Source of the DNA: Rubrivivax sp.
GTDB lineage: Bacteria; Pseudomonadota; Gammaproteobacteria; Burkholderiales; Burkholderiaceae_C
DNA: 64,000 bases
Direction of reading: 5' to 3'
NCBI GenBank assembly: GCA_020248915.1
Contig: JADCGP010000017.1
Span: 124,001 to 188,000 of the forward strand
Position 1 is the first letter of the stretch. Each line of letters begins with the position of its first letter. The translations under genes and the position numbers were made by a program. Below, piece by piece: positions 2,375-10,727 of the stretch. Below the pieces are notes generated by a model. It ran no database searches and was not told the DNA's origin. It saw only the letters and a list, made by a program, of their open reading frames with translations.

Positions 2375-2670
2375 CGACTCAAGCCCAGGCTGTGTCGGGC
2401 GAGGGTTTCTTGGTCGCCAGCGTTTCATCTTCCGGGAACAGCGCGTCGATTTGCTTTGACGCCGACTCGACACAGGGGTAGAACCTTGTGGCCCGGGTGG
2501 GGGAGCGCGAGGGGTCCGAGCGGACGAGCCATCGGGGTTGCCGACTGCAGTGGGACCGTCGGCGTGGAGGCCGGGTGCGGCCGTCCGCGCGGATGTCGGG
2601 CTTTCATGCAGCCGCCGGTTCCAGCAGGCACGCGACGGGGCGTCGCGCTGCGGCAGGAGGGAGGCGAGCG

Positions 2671-3513
2671 ATGCGGGACGATTCGCGACGAGGTGGGCCA
2701 ACAGGCGGGCGCCGCGTTGATGTGCAGGCGCTCGCGCGCACGATCGACGACGACGTGATTCCGCGCCTGGCGCTGCGCCACCGCCAGGAGGCCGCGCCGG
2801 CGGAGCCGAACCCGCGGGCGCCTGCGGCCCGTTCCGGCGAGGCCTTGCCGGGCGAGCGCGAGGTGCGTGCCTACACCAAGCTGGTGCTCGACGGCGCCGA
2901 TGCGCAAGCCGCATCGATGCTGGATGCGCTGCGCGCGCGCGGCTGCCCGGTCGAGACGATCTTCCTGCACCTGCTGCAGCCAGCAGCGCGCCTTCTGGGC
3001 GAGCTCTGGTGCGACGACCGGATCGACTTCGCCCAGTGCACGCTGGCGGTCGGCCGCATGCAGCGGGTCATGCGCGAGCTGAGCCAGGCCTTCGCCGCCG
3101 AGTGCGAGCCCGCGGCACGCGCGCACCGCGCGCTGTTCGTGCAGGCCTCCGGGGAGCAGCACGGATTCGGCCTGTCGATGCTGGCCGAGTTCTTCCGCCG
3201 TGCCGGCTGGGACGTCGTGGGCGCGGTGGGCGGGGCGGCTGGCGAGGCCGCCGAGCGCGTGCGCCGAGAGTGGATCGACGTGGTGGGCTTCTCGGTGGGC
3301 AGCGAGGTGCAGCTCGACCGGTTGCGCAGCGCGATCGCCGGTGTGCGCGCGGCCTCGCAGAACCCCCGCGTCGTCGTGATGCTGGGCGGCCCGCTGTTCG
3401 TCGAGCGGCCCGAGCTGCTCGCGGCGTGCGGCGCCGACGGCGGCGCCGTCGACGCGAACCAGGCGCTCCTCCAGGCCGCGCGGTTGGTGGCCGAGCGCAA
3501 CGCATCCCACTGA
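2671..3513 (+). CDS. ppaA: PpaA/AerR-family B12-binding photosynthesis regulator
   Basis: A 280-aa regulator of the PpaA/AerR family, which modulates the PpsR/CrtJ repressor and in studied members binds cobalamin. Residues about 60-140 form the helical cap, with the LLGELWCDDRIDFAQCT block typical of B12-binding modules. Residues about 150-275 form a Rossmann-like B12 domain, with His164 in QASGEQHGFG as the likely cobalt ligand, followed by GFSVGSE and GGPLF loops. I choose the ATG preceded by AGGAGG; an open frame extends about 60 codons upstream but has arginine/glycine-rich composition and no clear start signal. It lies just before ppsR, the usual pairing. Function is inferred from family and neighbourhood. 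Confidence 0.87.
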   Translation: MRDDSRRGGPTGGRRVDVQALARTIDDDVIPRLALRHRQEAAPAEPNPRAPAARSGEALPGEREVRAYTKLVLDGADAQAASMLDALRARGCPVETIFLHLLQPAARLLGELWCDDRIDFAQCTLAVGRMQRVMRELSQAFAAECEPAARAHRALFVQASGEQHGFGLSMLAEFFRRAGWDVVGAVGGAAGEAAERVRREWIDVVGFSVGSEVQLDRLRSAIAGVRAASQNPRVVVMLGGPLFVERPELLAACGADGGAVDANQALLQAARLVAERNASH

Positions 3514-3604: not shown

Positions 3605-5089
3605 ATGCCCCGCGCGACTGCCGGCACCCCGCCCTTGGGAGAACTGGATGCCGCCTCGGCGGCGCGACTGGCCGGAACGGCCGGCGACGTGGCCTTGGTG
3701 CTGGACGACCAGGGGGCCGTCCTCGACGTGATGGCCGGTGGCATCGAGCTGCCCGAGCGCGAACTGCGCCGCTGGCGCGGCCAGGCCTGGGCCGACACCG
3801 TCACGGCGGAAAGCCGCCCGAAGATCGAGCAGCTGCTCGCGGATGCGCGCGACTCCGGCGATCCTGCGCCGCCGCGCTGGCGCCAGGTCAATCACACGCT
3901 GCCCGGCCACGAGGACGTGCCCGTGCTGTACACGACGGTGCGCCTGCCGGTGCGCAGCGGGGGCACCGGCACCCACCCGGGGATCGTCGCGATCGGGCGC
4001 GACCTGCGTGCAGTCGTGACGCTGCAGCGGCGCCTCGTCGAGGCCCAGCAGGCCCTGGAGCGCGAGTACTGGCGCTTTCGCGAGGCAGAGACCCGCTACC
4101 GGCACCTTTTCGACGTCTCCAGCGAGCCGGTGCTGATCATCGACGCCGCGACGCAGCGCATCGTCGAGGCCAACCCGGCGGCACGTGCGCTGTGCGCGGG
4201 CGCCCGTTCGCGGCTGGTCGGCTCGCCGATCGGGAGCCTGTTCGATGCCGCGCACGGCCCGCGCGTCCAGGACCTGCTGGCCGCCGCCCGCTCCATCGGC
4301 CGGCAGGCGCCGGTGCCGCTGCAGCTGGCGGCCGGCAGCGCGGTGCAGGTGTCGGCATCGATGTACCGGCAGGACGACGCCTCGTTCGTGCTGTTGCGGC
4401 TGCTCCCACCCCCCCAGGTCGCGGGGGTCGGCGGGCGCGGCTTTGCGGCAGCGGCGGCGCCCGGCGCGGCCGAGCCCCCGACCGCCCTGCTGCAGGGTTT
4501 CGTCGAGCACTCGCCCGACGGGCTGGTGTTCTGCGACCACGCCGGGGTCGTGCTGTCGGCCAACCCAGCCTTCCTGACACTCGTGCAGATGGGCAGCGAG
4601 AGCCAGGTGCGCGGGCAGCCGCTGGACCGCTGGGTGGGACGGACCGGGGTCGAGATCGGGGTGCTGATCGGTAACCTGCGCCAGCGTGGCACGGTCGGCC
4701 TGTTCCAGACCTCCATTCGCGGCGAGTTCGGTGCCCGGACCGAGGTGGAAGTCACCGGCGCGGTGGTGCCCACGGCGGAAGGCGGCGTGCTCGCCTTCGC
4801 GGTGCGCGACATCGAGCGCCGGCTGCGGCCCGAGGCCGCCGGCAGCCCGCCGACGCTGCAGCGCTCGGCGGCAGAGCTGGCGGAGCTCGTCGGACGCACT
4901 CCGCTCAAGGAGATCGTGGCCGAGACGACCGACCTGATCGAGCAGCTGTGCATCCAGACCGCGCTGCAGATGACGGGCGACAACCGCGCCTCGGCCGCGC
5001 AGTTGCTCGGGCTGTCGCGCCAGAGCCTGTACGTCAAGCTGCGGCGCTACGGCCTCAGCGACTCGCCCGAGCCCGCCGAGACTCCCTGA
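3605..5089 (+). CDS. ppsR: PpsR/CrtJ transcriptional repressor of photosynthesis genes
   Basis: A 494-aa PpsR/CrtJ repressor, slightly longer than the usual 465-470. Layout: N-terminal PAS-like domain at about 20-125, a glutamine/arginine-rich helix (about 135-165, REYWRFREAETRYRHLF), two PAS domains at about 167-275 and 295-405, and a C-terminal Fis-type helix-turn-helix ending AAQLLGLSRQSLYVKLRRYG. Cys449, just before the HTH, matches the redox-active cysteine described in this family; Cys310 lies in the last PAS domain. The Shine-Dalgarno sequence is weak. It follows ppaA and precedes bchG, and PpsR-like sites lie before both bchF/ppaA and bchG, implying autoregulation of the cluster. Confidence 0.93.
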   Translation: MPRATAGTPPLGELDAASAARLAGTAGDVALVLDDQGAVLDVMAGGIELPERELRRWRGQAWADTVTAESRPKIEQLLADARDSGDPAPPRWRQVNHTLPGHEDVPVLYTTVRLPVRSGGTGTHPGIVAIGRDLRAVVTLQRRLVEAQQALEREYWRFREAETRYRHLFDVSSEPVLIIDAATQRIVEANPAARALCAGARSRLVGSPIGSLFDAAHGPRVQDLLAAARSIGRQAPVPLQLAAGSAVQVSASMYRQDDASFVLLRLLPPPQVAGVGGRGFAAAAAPGAAEPPTALLQGFVEHSPDGLVFCDHAGVVLSANPAFLTLVQMGSESQVRGQPLDRWVGRTGVEIGVLIGNLRQRGTVGLFQTSIRGEFGARTEVEVTGAVVPTAEGGVLAFAVRDIERRLRPEAAGSPPTLQRSAAELAELVGRTPLKEIVAETTDLIEQLCIQTALQMTGDNRASAAQLLGLSRQSLYVKLRRYGLSDSPEPAETP

Positions 5090-5250: not shown

Positions 5251-6165
5251 ATGGCACTGACGGCGCGCACGCCGCCCCCGGCACGGACTTCGTGGCCGGC
5301 CCCCTCGGCCGTGGCCGAGCTGCTCAAGCCCATCACGTGGTTCCCGCCGATGTGGGCTTTCCTGTGCGGCGTCGTCGCATCGGGGGTCCCGCTCGCCGGG
5401 AACTGGGGCCTCGCGCTGGTGGGCATCGTGCTGGCGGGCCCGATGGTCTGCGCCACCAGCCAGGCCGTCAACGACTGGTTCGACCGTCACGTCGATGCGA
5501 TCAACGAGCCGCAGCGCCCGATCCCGTCGGGCCGCATGCCGGGCCGTTGGGGGCTGTACGTGGCCGTCGCGTGGACGCTGCTGTCGCTGGCGGTGGCCAC
5601 CGCGCTCGGTCCCTGGGGTTTCGGGGCGGCGGTGCTGGGGCTGGTGCTCGCCTGGCTGTACAGCGCGCCGCCGGTGCGCCTGAAAGCCAACGGCTGGTGG
5701 GGCAACGCCGCCTGCGGCCTGAGCTACGAGACGCTGGCCTGGGTCACCGGCGCCGCCGTGATGGCCGGCGGCGCGATGCCGGCGCCCTCCTCGCTGCTGG
5801 TGGCCCTGCTCTACGGTCTGGGCGCCCACGGCATCATGACGCTCAACGACTTCAAGGCCGTCGCGGGCGACCGCCGGATGGGCGTGCGCTCGCTGCCGGT
5901 GCAGCTCGGCGTGCCGCGCGCCGCCCGCGTGGCCTGCGCGACCATGCTGGCCGCGCAGGCGGTGGTCGTCGGTCTGCTCGCCTCCTGGGACCGCCCGCTG
6001 CATGCGCTGGTCGTGCTCGCGCTGGTCGCCGGCCAGGCGCTGATGATGCGGCGCTTCCTGCGCGATCCGGCGCGCCACGCGCTGTGGCTCAGCGGCCTCG
6101 GCGTGCCGCTGTACGTGCTCGGCATGCTGGCCGCCGCGTTCGCGCTGCGCGCGCCCGGCGGCTGA
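5251..6165 (+). CDS. bchG: BchG, bacteriochlorophyll synthase
   Basis: BchG (304 aa) is a membrane prenyltransferase of the UbiA family that esterifies bacteriochlorophyllide a with a geranylgeranyl or phytyl diphosphate tail. The first aspartate-rich motif is N74-D-W-F-D78-R-H-V-D82 followed by AINEPQRPIPSGR, a BchG/ChlG signature. The second is at about 199-207 (LNDFKAVAGD). Eight or nine hydrophobic segments are visible. The stop is followed directly by the pucC-like gene, which with bchP forms the bchG-bch2-bchP order known from purple bacteria. A PpsR-like site lies just upstream. Confidence 0.95.
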   Translation: MALTARTPPPARTSWPAPSAVAELLKPITWFPPMWAFLCGVVASGVPLAGNWGLALVGIVLAGPMVCATSQAVNDWFDRHVDAINEPQRPIPSGRMPGRWGLYVAVAWTLLSLAVATALGPWGFGAAVLGLVLAWLYSAPPVRLKANGWWGNAACGLSYETLAWVTGAAVMAGGAMPAPSSLLVALLYGLGAHGIMTLNDFKAVAGDRRMGVRSLPVQLGVPRAARVACATMLAAQAVVVGLLASWDRPLHALVVLALVAGQALMMRRFLRDPARHALWLSGLGVPLYVLGMLAAAFALRAPGG

Positions 6166-6180
6166 GTGCAGGGCGCACCG

Positions 6181-7524
6181 ATGTCGTCCGGCCAAGCCCT
6201 GCCCGCCCGGCCCGGCGCCGGACTGGGCCTGATCCTACGGCTCGGCCTGGTGCAGGCGATGCTCGGGTCGATCGTCGTGCTCACCACGTCGACGATCAAC
6301 CGGGTGATGGTCGTCGAGCTGGCGCTGCCGGCCCTGGTGCCCGGCCTGCTGGTGGCGCTGCACCACGCGGTGCAGGCCACGCGGCCGCGGATGGGCTACG
6401 GTTCCGACGTCGGCAGGCGCCGCACGCCATGGATCCTCGGCGGTCTGGCCGTGCTGGGCCTGGGCGGCTTCGGCGCGGCGCTGGGCACCGCCTGGGCGGC
6501 CTCGGATCCCTCCGCCGGACTGGCTCTCGCCGCGGTGTCCTTCGTCGCCGTGGGCCTGGGCGTCAGCGCGGCGGGCACCTCGCTGCTGGCCCTGCTGGCG
6601 CGCCAGGTCGAGCCGCCGAAGCGCGCCACGGCAGCCGCCGTCGTCTGGGTGATGATGATCGTCGGCTTCGCGGTCACCGCCGGGCTGGCCGGCCGCTTCC
6701 TCGACCCCTTCACGCCGGCCCGCCTGGTGGCGGTGTCGGGCACCGTGTCGCTGCTGGCCGTGACGATCGCCGCCGCCGCGCTGTGGCGCCTGGAAACCGC
6801 GGCGCCGGCCGCCGCCGCACCCGAAGCCCACCGGCAGGCTTTCCTGCCCGCGCTGCGGCAGGTGTGGGCCGAGCCCGAGGCGCGGCGCTTCACGATCTTC
6901 GTCTTCGTCTCGATGCTGGCCTACAGCACGCAGGACCTGATCCTCGAGCCCTTCGCCGGCCTGCTGTTCGGGATGACGCCGGGCCAGACGACCCAGCTGG
7001 CGGGCGTGCAGCACGGCGGCACCCTGGCCGGCATGCTGCTGGCGGCTCTGGCCGGGCGGCGCATCGGCGGTGTATGGATGGGCTCACTGCAGACCTGGAC
7101 CGTGGGCGGGTGCCTCGCCTCGGGCGTGGCCCTGCTCGGGCTGGTGCTCGCCGGGGCGCTGGCGCCGAACTGGCCGCTGCACGCCAACGTGTTCATGCTC
7201 GGGGCGGCCAACGGCGCGTTCTCGATCGCCGCGATCGGCTCGATGATGGGCCTGGCCGGCCACGGCCGCGAGCGGCGCGAGGGCACCCGACTCGGCCTGT
7301 GGGGCGCGGCGCAGGCCATCGGCTTTGCCGCCGGTGGCCTGTTCGGCGCCGCGGCCAGCGACGTGGCGCGGGCGCTGCTCGGCTCGCCCGGCGCGGGTTA
7401 TGCGGCGGTCTTCCTGCTCGAAGCCACGATGTTCGTCGCGGCGGCGGCGCTGGCCGCGCGCATCGCCCTGGTCCGCCACGACACCCCGCCCGCCGCAGCC
7501 GTGTTCGGCGGCCTGCAACGATGA
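6181..7524 (+). CDS. PucC/LhaA-family light-harvesting assembly protein (Bch2)
   Basis: A 447-aa, roughly 12-helix membrane protein of the BCH2/PucC/LhaA branch of the major facilitator superfamily, thought to help deliver bacteriochlorophyll or assemble antenna complexes. The family signature ALHHAVQATRPRMGYGSDVG followed by RRRTPWILGG lies between the first helices, with YSTQDLILEPF mid-protein. The chosen ATG has AGGG seven bases upstream; a GTG directly after the bchG stop would add five residues. Its stop overlaps a bchP ATG (ATGA). The bchG/bchP context points to the gene called bch2 or orf428 in relatives; which antenna it serves cannot be told. Confidence 0.88.
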   Translation: MSSGQALPARPGAGLGLILRLGLVQAMLGSIVVLTTSTINRVMVVELALPALVPGLLVALHHAVQATRPRMGYGSDVGRRRTPWILGGLAVLGLGGFGAALGTAWAASDPSAGLALAAVSFVAVGLGVSAAGTSLLALLARQVEPPKRATAAAVVWVMMIVGFAVTAGLAGRFLDPFTPARLVAVSGTVSLLAVTIAAAALWRLETAAPAAAAPEAHRQAFLPALRQVWAEPEARRFTIFVFVSMLAYSTQDLILEPFAGLLFGMTPGQTTQLAGVQHGGTLAGMLLAALAGRRIGGVWMGSLQTWTVGGCLASGVALLGLVLAGALAPNWPLHANVFMLGAANGAFSIAAIGSMMGLAGHGRERREGTRLGLWGAAQAIGFAAGGLFGAAASDVARALLGSPGAGYAAVFLLEATMFVAAAALAARIALVRHDTPPAAAVFGGLQR

Positions 7525-7532
7525 GGTCCACG

Positions 7533-8741
7533 ATGAAGCAGCCAGCCCAGAACGAACCCTATGACGTCGTCGTCGTCGGCGGCGGCCCGGCAGGCGCCAC
7601 GGCGGCGCACGACCTGGCCGGCGTCGGCGTCCGCGTGCTGCTGCTCGACCGCGGCGGGCGCATCAAGCCCTGCGGCGGGGCGATCCCGCCGCGGCTGATC
7701 CGCGATTTCGGGATCCCGGACCACCTGCTGGTAGCCAAGGCGCGCTGCGCTCGGATGATCGCGCCTTCGGACCAGCGCGTGGACATCCCGATCGAGAACG
7801 GCTTCGTCGGCCTCGTCGATCGCGAGGTGTTCGACGAGTGGCTGCGCGCGCGCGCGGTCGAGGCCGGCGCCGTGCGCTGCACCGGCACCTTCGAGCGCAT
7901 CGAGCGCACCGACGACGGGCTCGCGGTGATCCACTTCCGGCACCGGCTCGACGACGGCGCCGAGCGCACGGCTTCGGTGCGCGCACGCTGCGTGATCGGC
8001 GCCGACGGCGCGCGCTCCGAGGTCGCGCGCCAGGCGGTGCCCGGATCCGACCGCGGCCGGTTCGTGTTCGCCTACCACGAGATCGTGCGCGCACCGGAGC
8101 AGCCGGGCCCGGACTACGACGGGTCGCGCTGCGACGTCTACTACCGCGGCGAGCTGTCGCCCGACTTCTACGGCTGGGTGTTCCCGCACGGTGCCACGCT
8201 CAGCGTGGGCACCGGCAGCGCCGACAAGGGCTTCTCGCTGCGCCACGCCACCAGCGCACTGCGCCGCGCCGCCGGGCTCGACGGTCTGCCCACCGTGCGC
8301 CGCGAGGGCGCCCCGATCCCGCTCAAGCCGCTGCCGCGCTGGGACGATGGGCGCAACGTCGTGCTGGCCGGCGACGCCGCGGGCGTCGTGGCCCCGGCCT
8401 CGGGCGAGGGCATCTACTACGCGATGGCGGGCGGCCGCTTCGCGGCCGAGGCTGCTCGCGAGTTCCTCGCCACCGACAACGTCCGCGCGCTGGCACAGGC
8501 CCGCAAGCGCTTCATGCGCGAGCACGGCCGCGTCTTCTGGGTGCTGGGCGTGATGCAGCACTTCTGGTACAGCAGCGACAAGCGGCGCGAGCGCTTCGTC
8601 AGCATCTGCCGAGACAAGGACGTGCAGACGCTGACCTTCGATGCCTACATGAACAAGCGACTGGTGCGCAAGAGGCCGATGGCCCATGTGCGCATCTTCG
8701 TCAAGGACATGGCGCACCTGCTCGGCCTGGCACGCGTCTGA
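7533..8741 (+). CDS. bchP: BchP, geranylgeranyl (bacterio)chlorophyll reductase
   Basis: BchP (402 aa from this start) is a FAD/NADPH enzyme that reduces the geranylgeranyl tail of bacteriochlorophyll to phytyl. The N-terminal dinucleotide fold is YDVVVVGGGPAGATAA (GxGxxG at 16-21). The second FAD motif GDAAGVV starts at 280 and is followed by SGEGIYYAM. RGGRIKPCGGAIPP near the N-terminus is typical of geranylgeranyl reductases. This ATG follows GAGG by six bases; an alternative ATG 12 bases upstream overlaps the previous stop (ATGA) and would add four residues. Last of the pigment genes in the rightward group. Confidence 0.95.
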   Translation: MKQPAQNEPYDVVVVGGGPAGATAAHDLAGVGVRVLLLDRGGRIKPCGGAIPPRLIRDFGIPDHLLVAKARCARMIAPSDQRVDIPIENGFVGLVDREVFDEWLRARAVEAGAVRCTGTFERIERTDDGLAVIHFRHRLDDGAERTASVRARCVIGADGARSEVARQAVPGSDRGRFVFAYHEIVRAPEQPGPDYDGSRCDVYYRGELSPDFYGWVFPHGATLSVGTGSADKGFSLRHATSALRRAAGLDGLPTVRREGAPIPLKPLPRWDDGRNVVLAGDAAGVVAPASGEGIYYAMAGGRFAAEAAREFLATDNVRALAQARKRFMREHGRVFWVLGVMQHFWYSSDKRRERFVSICRDKDVQTLTFDAYMNKRLVRKRPMAHVRIFVKDMAHLLGLARV

Positions 8742-8849
8742 ACACCGCGTCCGGTCGAGGCCCTGTCCTCGACACGCCGCCCGGAGCGAGGACCCTCTGG
8801 GCAGGGAGAACGGGAGACGGTCCATGGATGCCGCTGCCAGGACGGGCCA

Positions 8850-10304
8850 GTGAACGGCCGCGCCGCACGAACCGCCGACCTCGGCGCGCTCTCCGACTGC
8901 GCGCACGAGGTCGCGGCTGCCTTCGTGTCGCTGGCCTCCGACATCGCGGTCGTGGTCGACGGCAAGGGTGTCGTCACCGGCGTCGCGCTGAGCGCGGCCG
9001 CGCCGCTGCCGGCCGGTGCCGAGGACTGGGTCGGCAGGCCGTGGACCGACACGGTCACCGGGGGCACACGCCGCAAGATCGAGCTGATGCTGGCCGACGT
9101 CGCGCTGACCGGCGTCGCGCGCCGCCGCGAGGTCAACCTGCCGGCCGACGAGGGCGAGATCCCCGTGGCCTACACCGCGCTGCGCCTCGGCTCCCGCGGC
9201 CCGGTGATCGCCGTCGGGCGCGACCTGCGCGAGGTCGCCGCCAGCCAGCAGCGCTTCCTCGACGTGCAGCAGCAGATGGAACGCAGCTACTGGCGCGCGC
9301 GCCAACTCGAGTCGCGCTACCGGCAGCTGTTCCAGCTGGCCAGCGACGCGGCGATGACGGTCGAGGCGCAGTCGCAGCGGGTGGTCGAGGCCAACCACGC
9401 GGCCGCCCGACTGTTCGACAGCCACGACGGGCCGCTGGCCGGCGCGGTGACGCTGGCGCTGTTCGAGCCCGCCTCGCGGCCCGGCATCCAGCAACTGCTC
9501 GACGAGGTGCTCGCAGGCGGACGGCCCGGCGAAGCCGCGGCGCTGACGGCCTCCGGCGAGCCGGTGTCGGTGTCGGCGACGCCGTTCCGCGCGCGCGACG
9601 GCATGCGGCTGCTGCTGCGGCTGCGGGCGCTGTCGGGCGGGGCAAAGGCATCGGGCGACCTGAGTCTTGCCCTCGCGCGGCTGGTCGACACCACGCGCGA
9701 CGGGATCGTCGTCACTGGCCCGGACGGCCACATCGCGGTGGCCAACCCGGCCTTCGTGGCCATGGTCGGCGTGGCGTCGGATTCGCAGCTGCGCGGCAGG
9801 GCGCTGTCCGACTGGCTGGGCCGCATCCCGGGCGACGTGCCGGCGTTGATCGCCGGGGTCCACGGTCACGGTCTGGCACAGCTGGTGCGCACGCAACTGC
9901 GCCCGGAGTCGGGCCACGCCCCGATCGATGTCGACGTGGCGGCGGCGCTGATCTCCGACGGCGATCCCGAGTGCTTCGGATTCACGCTGAGGGAGTGCGC
10001 GCCGGCAACACCCGCCGCCGAGCGCAGACGCCGGCGCCTCGACGACGCCATGGCCGCCCTCGAGACGAGCCTCGACGACCCGGATGTGCCGCGTGCCGAC
10101 CTGCTGCTGCAGGCCCAGCGCCTGGCGCAAGGGCACCTCGCCGAGTGCGCGCTCGACCGCTGCGGCAGCGACGTGCAGGCCGCGGCTGCGCTGCTCGGCA
10201 TCGACGCGAAGGAACTGGCAGACCTGCAGAACCTGCCCGACCTGAAGTCGCCCCGGCGCGAACCGGCGCCCGCACCGCCCGCGACCGACACCCCCGACGC
10301 CTGA
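8850..10304 (+). CDS. PpsR-like PAS protein lacking a functional HTH
   Basis: A 484-aa protein that matches the ppsR product of this window along its length. It has the same N-terminal block (WVGRPWTDTVTGGTRRKIEL versus WRGQAWADTVTAESRPKIEQ), the same central helix (SYWRARQLESRYRQLF) and two further PAS regions with VEANHAAARLF and VANPAFVAMVG. The C-terminus keeps the frame of the Fis-type HTH (AAALLGIDAKELADLQNL), but the recognition helix SRQSLYVKLRRYG is replaced. Cys433 and Cys438 lie near the place of the redox cysteine. GTG start, overlapping the stop of a nine-codon reading frame. I infer a co-regulator or sensor that cannot bind the PpsR operator alone. Confidence 0.8.
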   Translation: MNGRAARTADLGALSDCAHEVAAAFVSLASDIAVVVDGKGVVTGVALSAAAPLPAGAEDWVGRPWTDTVTGGTRRKIELMLADVALTGVARRREVNLPADEGEIPVAYTALRLGSRGPVIAVGRDLREVAASQQRFLDVQQQMERSYWRARQLESRYRQLFQLASDAAMTVEAQSQRVVEANHAAARLFDSHDGPLAGAVTLALFEPASRPGIQQLLDEVLAGGRPGEAAALTASGEPVSVSATPFRARDGMRLLLRLRALSGGAKASGDLSLALARLVDTTRDGIVVTGPDGHIAVANPAFVAMVGVASDSQLRGRALSDWLGRIPGDVPALIAGVHGHGLAQLVRTQLRPESGHAPIDVDVAAALISDGDPECFGFTLRECAPATPAAERRRRRLDDAMAALETSLDDPDVPRADLLLQAQRLAQGHLAECALDRCGSDVQAAAALLGIDAKELADLQNLPDLKSPRREPAPAPPATDTPDA

Positions 10305-10433
10305 GCGCGTGCGTGCGGCCGCGGAGGCCGCGGATGTCGCGGCGACAGCGCCGCTGGCGCCCCGGGCTTGCCGACCGGCCGGGCCGCGCGCAGCAAGCGC
10401 AAGCGACCGGCAAACAAATGGGCAAGCACAAGG

Positions 10434-10470
10434 AAAAGGGCTGCGGCACCTGGATGCCGCAGCCCTTTCG
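10434..10470 (-). terminator. Strong intrinsic terminator after the tRNA cluster
   Basis: A perfect 14-bp stem (AAAGGGCTGCGGCA and its complement) closes a six-base loop and is followed on the minus strand by TTTT. It lies five bases after the 3' end of tRNA-Asp, so it ends the gltX/tRNA transcript. On the plus strand the stem is followed by TTT only and could also stop the ppsR-like transcript. Confidence 0.88.
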
Positions 10471-10474
10471 ATCT

Positions 10475-10551
10475 TGGCGGAGTGGACGGGACTCGAACCC
10501 GCGACCCCCGGCGTGACAGGCCGGTATTCTAACCGACTGAACTACCACTCC
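10475..10551 (-). tRNA. tRNA-Asp(GTC)
   Basis: A complete 77-base cloverleaf with encoded CCA. Acceptor GGAGTGG pairs with CCACTCC, the anticodon loop is CTGTCAC (anticodon GTC), and the T-arm contains GGTTCGAGTCC. Sequence closely follows the E. coli tRNA-Asp. Third of three tRNAs on the minus strand. Confidence 0.98.
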
Positions 10552-10607
10552 GCGTCGGTGCCGGCGTCCGGGCCTCACAGCCCCAAGTGCCGGCGCACTT
10601 GTCTCTT

Positions 10608-10683
10608 TGGCGTCCCCTAGGGGATTCGAACCCCTGTTACAACCGTGAAAGGGTCGTGTCCTGGGCCTCTAGACGAAGGGGAC
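10608..10683 (-). tRNA. tRNA-Glu(TTC)
   Basis: A complete 76-base tRNA with encoded CCA. Acceptor GTCCCCT pairs with AGGGGAC, the anticodon loop is CTTTCAC (anticodon TTC), and the T-arm is GGTTCGAATCC. It lies downstream of gltX, the gene for its own synthetase, on the same strand. Confidence 0.98.
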
Positions 10684-10727
10684 CCCGGCAATCTCTCTCT
10701 CTCGCGAACGGCGCCCGGCGCTGCGGT

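Follow-up and report, generated by a model that had tools for sequence, protein, structure and literature searches.

What can be expected of a protein that keeps the architecture of the repressor PpsR and has an altered DNA-recognition helix? This question is raised by a gene found at 8850..10304, on the plus strand, of a 64,000-nucleotide stretch of a Rubrivivax sp. contig (hereafter the window), which lies after bchP and encodes a PpsR-like protein of 484 amino acids from a GTG start. A sequence-only reading had seen in it a PpsR paralogue able to pair through its PAS domains but not to bind DNA, which could be a built-in antirepressor and an alternative to AppA. The gene belongs to a clade of PpsR-like proteins from beta- and gammaproteobacteria for which the label PAR is used here.

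The PpsR-like gene after bchP

The window PAR shares 32% identity over most of its length with the canonical PpsR/CrtJ of the same window (3605..5089, plus strand; TIGR02040, HTH_8), which has an intact HTH and is its presumed partner. The E value of 4e-58 (BLASTP) rules out a chance resemblance and bears out the claim of paralogy. As the PpsR/CrtJ plan requires, the protein has an N-domain (residues 12-123, 8883..9218), a dimer module in Rhodobacter PpsR, a Q-linker helix (residues 124-158, 9219..9323, aligned with 4hh2) and two further PAS domains, PAS1 (residues 159-258, 9324..9623; Pfam PAS_4/PAS_9) and PAS2 (residues 272-382, 9663..9995); a remnant of the HTH follows (residues 415-464, 10092..10241), all of these features being on the plus strand. 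The frame is open and intact, without internal stop, and a pseudogene or a sequence error can be ruled out from this open frame, a start region common to the homologues and the 77 PAR sequences gathered. The TIGR02040 profile (PpsR-CrtJ) is matched over its positions 2-429 of 442 with 255 bits, under the equivalog cut-off of 275.4, and the window PpsR scores 454.6 bits.

When aligned with the window PpsR, the PAR retains the AAxLLG of the HTH while SRQSLYVKLRRYG has become DAKELADLQNLPD (recognition-helix segment at 10203-10241), exactly as had been described; DAKELADLQ occupies the place of the recognition-helix motif SRQSLY. The PAS domains are matched in Pfam but HTH_8 is not, up to E 1; the window PpsR matches HTH_8 at 1.7e-9. 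The statement that the recognition helix had been replaced stands for its residues only, since helices are still predicted at 415-437, 442-449 and 453-460 by AlphaFold2 (pLDDT 88 overall, 93-95 across residues 441-460). In this model, the recognition helix is still there, in a shorter and altered form. No BLUF or SCHIC domain (both up to E 1) and no B12-binding domain was matched in the protein with Pfam. A single BLUF match can be found in the window genome, in a 165-aa frame (G000:C10:6977-7252, L168), which is too short for an AppA-like fusion.

The pigment-gene block of the window reads on the plus strand. Just upstream of ppsR is a gene for a B12-binding protein (2488..3513; Pfam B12-binding and B12-binding_2), which we take from the usual gene order to be aerR/ppaA-like. 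After ppsR come bchG (5251..6165; PRK07566, TIGR01476), an ORF (6166..7524) matched by none of the NCBIfam families and presumably PucC/LhaA-like, which lies between bchG and bchP in most loci, and bchP itself (7536..8741; TIGR02023, 509 bits). Between the PAR gene and the tRNA genes, a hairpin with a T-rich tail (10434..10469) is terminator-like on the minus strand; tRNA-Asp (10475..10551, minus strand), then tRNA-Glu and tRNA-Ala, mark the end of the block. A nine-codon ATG frame (8824-8853, MDAAARTGQ), whose TGA overlaps the GTG start of PAR as GTGA, is a possible leader or a means of coupling to PAR. The TGT-N12-ACA pattern was matched five times in the window, vs 3.6 expected; one match (8926-8943) falls within the PAR coding sequence and the scan gave none directly upstream of PAR. 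Likewise, no promoter was found by scanning 8600-10700.

Distribution of the family and degeneration of its HTH

Homologues were searched in the own genome and 60 relatives, then in 81 genomes of the genus; a scan of 84,980 species genomes confirmed 87 loci, of which the best 80 were used. Most of these 80 carry PAR and some PpsR only. The gene is thus conserved and found repeatedly in relatives, the window PAR having its best match among the 60 other genomes at 53% identity, and the family extends to Methyloversatilis and to Nevskia-type gammaproteobacteria; Rubrivivax rivuli KYPY4, Methyloversatilis thermotolerans 3t and Roseateles puraquae are among its cultured carriers. On plasmids, ten records match, all at annotated ppsR genes, and none reaches 80% cover. 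Genomes of the genus were sorted into PAR and PpsR by score, and by sequence where retrieved, among the matches listed; eight PpsRs sorted by score were rechecked, seven of them having SRQSLY and the eighth (G084) being cut by a contig end and nearer PpsR than PAR.

From the extracted proteins (77 PAR and 64 PpsR rows), three of 144 were removed before trees were built, namely a ppsR end of 36 aa and two fragments of a frameshifted copy, and removal of near-duplicates above 93% reduced 141 rows to 129. In the tree made without the HTH columns, the PARs stand on one side of a fully supported branch (71 vs 58 rows). The same split was obtained, with a support of 100/100, in an 83-row tree also made without these columns, where 32 of the 77 PARs are set against 51 others (21 of the 64 PpsRs and 30 alphaproteobacterial rows). 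By these trees, PAR is a clade separate from PpsR. The free tree also sets PAR apart from the alphaproteobacterial PpsR2, and so suggests an independent origin of the two; this is not claimed, because the union of both was not rejected by an AU test (p 0.188), in which L203, a BphP-adjacent copy labelled aPpsR1 in the 83-row tree, was grouped with PpsR2.

Some loci show peculiarities of their own. The frameshifted copy is the PAR of Piscinibacter aquaticus (L144:8001-11559), in which the reading frame shifts behind residue 149 and the frame that follows continues into BphP; an assembly error is likely since further genes of that contig look truncated. The G034 bin holds two photosynthesis blocks (C23, L037, and C221, L048), with a long PAR in one block and a short PAR in the other, and is either a mixed bin or a genome with two clusters. 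G014 (L054, L065) and G102 (L162, L163) each have, in addition to PAR, a pair of canonical PpsR genes whose HTH is intact, and the paired copies fall in two separate clades.

At the sites of the HTH, PAR and PpsR are clearly distinct. SRQSLY is present in 63 of the 64 PpsRs and in none of the 77 PARs. The other site counts refer to 64 PARs, thirteen having been left out (ten without HTH, three cut by a contig end). Arg472, Gln473, Tyr476 and Lys478 are present in every PpsR (64/64); among PARs, Arg472 is retained in 8/64 and the position of Gln473 is acidic in 48/64 (Glu in 31, Asp in 17). The net charge over PpsR positions 457-484 goes from +3.9 in PpsR to +0.2 in PAR, and the HTH cysteine (449) is found in 59/64 PpsRs vs 0/64 PARs. 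The region is even completely absent from ten of the 77 PARs, i.e., two from Methyloversatilis (394 and 395 aa), two from gammaproteobacteria (402 and 404 aa), that of G100 (409 aa) and five short forms; on the seven of them present in the tree, complete loss requires at least two changes. The short PARs (207-271 aa; G036, G031, G028, G083 and the second G034 contig) occupy the same slot after bchP and consist only of the N-domain and half of the Q-linker, their homology stopping at residue 147. After the Q-linker they have in common a C-terminal peptide, EASRxAFAAWLxAE, up to DEASRAAFAAWLLAERQSG (L046:6302-6922, L047:10231-10851, L049:542-1186, L157:7391-8011, L048:1201-2013), which aligns with a PAS1 helix of long PARs and may be the remnant of an internal deletion or a new motif.

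In the group of the window gene, the bchP-slot group, none of the eight scanned PARs retaining the region reaches the HTH_8 cut-off. Across the family, sequence comparison indicates that the loss is graded: seven of ten PARs examined outside the window group pass the cut-off, and HTH_8 is still matched at E<=0.01 by 34 of 50 PARs, so that some of its members may have retained a degree of DNA binding. The selective regime was estimated as dN/dS (NG86) on closely related pairs within the family. All fifteen PAR pairs measured remain below 0.42 over the whole protein, with 0.07-0.37 in twelve full-length pairs and 0.30-0.41 in three short-form pairs, and six PpsR pairs give 0.07-0.23. For the HTH, the range is 0.04-0.51 in PAR vs 0.00-0.04 in PpsR, six of the twelve full-length PAR pairs lying at 0.04-0.15. 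Together with the HTH_8 matches outside the window group, these low values mean that the HTH may do something there.

A first rival explanation holds that PARs are mostly ordinary DNA-binding regulators of the PpsR2 type with an altered sequence preference, and that the window copy, having no BphP, is decaying from its C-terminus. We regard it as rather unlikely, though with a good deal to recommend it. It is favored by the HTH_8 still recognizable in 34 PARs, by the low HTH dN/dS of half of the full-length pairs, by a Methylibium PAR (L069) that is the only one to retain SRQS, and by the AU test, which leaves room for a clade with alphaproteobacterial PpsR2. The acidic residue at 473 speaks against it, being shared by BphP-linked PARs, as does the persistence of the short forms in five genomes with dN/dS values that stay below 0.42. 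The remaining evidence on this explanation comes from the phytochrome.

The adjacent bacteriophytochrome gene

Among the 72 testable PAR loci, i.e., those with at least 400 nt downstream, 61 have a BphP match that starts within 193 nt downstream of PAR on the same strand; in many cases a heme oxygenase gene in convergent orientation comes next. The PAR-BphP pair sits after bchP, pufC or puhE/acsF-type genes, or beside crt genes. Three PAR-linked phytochromes that were scanned have the organization PAS_2-GAF-PHY-PAS, without kinase; RpBphP1 is described as a PAS-GAF-PHY-PAS protein without kinase (passages of PMC6899989), and PpsR2 is reported beside BphP in Bradyrhizobium, R. palustris and Thiocapsa (passages of PMC5362033 and PMC12654162). 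Given this pairing, PAR can be viewed as the PpsR2-like half of a BphP-PpsR2 pair, and BphP1-PpsR2 as the nearest known system. It follows that the supposed alternative to AppA is too simple a description, considering both the AerR-like gene upstream of ppsR and the BphP pair in these 61 relatives. A second, divergent type of BphP is found beside PAR in L039, L096 and L156; it has about 38-47% identity and an unaligned stretch between the photosensory part and the C-terminus, and also occurs on the ppsR contig of three genomes in which PAR was not detected (G030:C74, G096:C114, G095:C180).

Within the genus, and among the matches listed, BphP1-type genes are present in 21 of 23 genomes with a long PAR vs 3 of 20 with PpsR only (Fisher 4e-7), a 207-aa C-terminal fragment in G010 having been left out that would make it 4/20, as well as shorter matches of about 32-39% identity ending near residue 540; they are present in none of the four genomes with only a short PAR. 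A search of the window genome gave no such phytochrome and no PHY domain; the window genome has lost the phytochrome. A relaxed selection after loss of the partner is therefore a real alternative for the window copy, whose present function is the least certain in the family.

In each of the eleven PARs that have no BphP next to them, the HTH is degenerate or missing (five short forms, one without HTH and five with remnants in which HTH_8 is lacking or under the cut-off), which again favors the explanation by DNA binding and decay; in two of these genomes, G019 and G032, BphP1-type genes lie at other loci. It is also favored by ten alphaproteobacterial genomes with two PpsR matches (among 297), in which the BphP-adjacent copy keeps SRQ[STAG]LY. 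However, loss of BphP is ruled out as a complete account of HTH decay, because BphP still adjoins an HTH-less PAR in two Methyloversatilis and one Nevskia, and is still linked to PARs whose HTH is under the cut-off in G022, G016 and G025. Furthermore, the N-domain and Q-linker of the BphP-less PARs stay close to those of the remaining PARs. Since the alphaproteobacterial copies beside BphP keep their motif, PAR is better seen as a partner of the PpsR2 type in which DNA recognition has been abandoned. The reading that we prefer, and to which we give an even chance, is that PAR is the partner of a kinase-less BphP and influences PpsR through protein pairing instead of DNA reading.

Conserved parts, relation to PpsR and known systems

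The mean pairwise identities of PAR and PpsR were compared in 19 genomes having both. PAR is the more conserved in the N-domain (0.55 vs 0.47 in PpsR) and equals PpsR in the first half of the Q-linker (0.73 vs 0.72). PpsR is the more conserved in the second half of the Q-linker (0.60 in PAR vs 0.82), PAS1 (0.42 vs 0.48), PAS2 (0.38 vs 0.59) and above all the HTH (0.38 vs 0.83). The earlier view that the rest of the protein had not decayed is thus correct for the N-domain and Q-linker; PAS1 and PAS2, by contrast, are more divergent than their counterparts in PpsR. Judged by identity, PAR has kept the parts that serve PpsR for pairing and has diverged in the part with which PpsR reads DNA. Two Q-linker residues, Q140 (75/77 PARs) and E144 (77/77), align in 4hh2 with Gln134 and Glu138 of Rb. 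sphaeroides PpsR, given an offset of five between chain index and published numbering deduced from two residues and consistent with the end of a residue range. According to passages of PMC3949515, Gln134 and Glu138 are in contact with the PAS2 domain of the other dimer, the Q-linker region is where AppA binds, and the N-terminal part of PpsR up to 141 is one dimeric unit followed by a hinge at 142-146; residue 147 of PAR, where homology of the short forms ends, corresponds to residue 141, at the edge before this hinge. Both the N-domain and the face of the Q-linker to which PAS2 or AppA docks in Rhodobacter PpsR are retained in PAR.

PpsR accompanies PAR almost everywhere. Among the matches listed for the genus, it is present in 27 of 27 PAR genomes, and PAR is missing from all 34 genomes that lack PpsR. 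In a further set sharing at least five genomes with these 27, PpsR is found in 49 of 50 PAR genomes (in G141 as two fragments only), the lone exception being a 2.8-Mb bin in which the contig ends before ppsR. The two genes are on one contig in 23 of the 50, and 4-54 kb apart in all 23, so that linkage alone can explain their co-occurrence. A further sign is a small co-variation of the N-domains: the identity between PAR and PpsR of one genome exceeds that across genomes by about 1.6% (z 5.8 in 68 genomes, 5.1 after composition correction), and this excess persists after thinning (39 genomes, z 3.7; 21 genomes, z 3.5, 15/21 positive). For PAS1, the excess (z 2.8 in the full set) disappears after thinning, and for PAS2 it goes from z 1.6 in the full set to 2.3 and 0.7 in the first and second thinning. 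Partial Mantel coefficients are positive for every part (N-domain.44, PAS1.25, PAS2.22; 25 genomes, 21 for PAS2). In the window genome itself, the value for the N-domain is slightly negative (-0.005). Such co-variation gives modest support to a contact between the N-domains of PAR and PpsR, and gene conversion may be another source of the own-genome likeness. With PpsR in nearly every PAR genome and the pairing parts conserved, the sequences are in line with the proposed role as a non-DNA-binding partner of PpsR.

It can also be imagined that PAR acts on BphP alone (or on AerR), e.g., as a sink or scaffold, and that it accompanies PpsR only by sharing the photosynthesis cluster. The tight PAR-BphP gene pair and the short distance to PpsR in the 23 same-contig genomes would agree with this, but five short PARs and six others are maintained with no BphP beside them, it is the oligomerization module, not PAS1, that is mainly conserved, and the N-domain co-varies with that of PpsR, which makes such a role improbable. 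Strengthened repression by a mixed PpsR/PAR tetramer or octamer, better or differently tuned and redox-insensitive for want of the HTH cysteine, is more doubtful still and in our view very unlikely. PpsR does form tetramers and octamers (passages of PMC3949515), and the cysteine common in PpsRs is found in none of the PARs; however, some HTHs of mixed oligomers could not read DNA, and the repeated disappearance of the entire HTH speaks for its being dispensable in such a complex.

The preferred reading, pairing with PpsR under a kinase-less BphP, combines a separate clade, replaced DNA-contact residues, repeated loss of the HTH, a retained N-domain and Q-linker, a BphP pair and the presence of PpsR, and pairing itself is proposed from the co-occurrence and the small N-domain co-variation. 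By way of its N-domain and Q-linker, PAR would form mixed dimers or tetramers with PpsR or, alternatively, fill PAS2 of PpsR by presenting the Q-linker face that is the target of AppA; fewer DNA-competent PpsR oligomers would result, as is the case for bHLH factors with Id proteins. In relatives, the phytochrome would bind PAR via Q-linker and PAS1, as BphP1 binds PpsR2, and far-red light would switch the action of PAR on PpsR through the bound phytochrome. A reduced BphP1 binder, QPAS1, consists of Q-linker and PAS1 (passages of PMC13058837); the short PARs are without PAS1 and found where no BphP1-type gene was detected. In the window strain, where the phytochrome is gone, PAR would be left as a probably light-independent modulator of PpsR. 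An antirepressor role is thus plausible and the phytochrome-linked PpsR paralogue the stronger frame, while a co-repressor role, or an action on BphP or AerR, is just as conceivable.

More tentatively, and with a chance we place below even, PAR may be a phytochrome-gated, Id-type antirepressor of PpsR widespread among beta- and gammaproteobacterial phototrophs, a DNA-blind duplicate stripped after loss of BphP to a mimic of the AppA site made of the N-domain and half of the Q-linker. The duplicated PpsR would have become a subunit that dilutes or unhinges PpsR oligomers, with charge reversal at the invariant Gln first and loss of the HTH afterwards, and the stripped short PAR would keep only the surface for PpsR pairing and PAS2 docking. 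If true, this would be a bacterial repressor paralogue turned inhibitor by losing its DNA contacts. PAR bears on the question of a far-red route to PpsR, and of a local antirepressor, in Burkholderiales-type phototrophs. The natural series from a full to an altered HTH, to none and finally to the N-domain with half of the Q-linker isolates the parts of PpsR needed for pairing; the short PARs are small candidate PpsR-binding modules, and PARs could supply new partners for BphP-based optogenetic tools.

With regard to the literature, passages of PMC4452267 report that Rvi. gelatinosus has a single ppsR homologue, and a Rubrivivax antirepressor is outside the scope of that paper. Among the papers listed by full-text search, titles, abstract beginnings and passages gave no description of a PpsR homologue without DNA-recognition helix, nor of a BphP-PpsR2 pair in Burkholderiales. 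A passage of PMC10037100 mentions a 'crtJ homologue (ORF350)' in the cluster of Roseateles depolymerans, possibly a PAR that has been recorded before as a crtJ homologue.

Compared with canonical PpsR/CrtJ (TIGR02040), the window PAR is below the cut-off of 275.4 and lacks HTH_8 and the HTH cysteine. With the BphP-PpsR2 pairs, i.e., RpBphP1-RpPpsR2 of Rhodopseudomonas palustris and those of Bradyrhizobium ORS278 and Thiocapsa, PAR shares the layout of N-domain, Q-linker, PAS1 and PAS2, the position beside a kinase-less phytochrome and the presence of an additional canonical PpsR in the phototroph. Known PpsR2 proteins, however, keep the HTH and are DNA-binding repressors, whereas PAR never has SRQSLY and in some lineages has no HTH, and the window genome departs further in that the phytochrome is absent. 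The antirepressors AppA, AerR/PpaA and LdaP have the same outcome as proposed for PAR, a weakened PpsR, and the Q-linker region bound by AppA is present in PAR; unlike them, PAR is a relative of PpsR and would use subunit mixing or docking-site mimicry. In animals, the Id proteins that inhibit bHLH factors are relatives of a dimeric DNA-binding factor in which pairing is kept and the DNA contacts are absent. Their fold is unrelated and the pairing of PAR with PpsR is here only inferred, but they offer a parallel to the action proposed for PAR.
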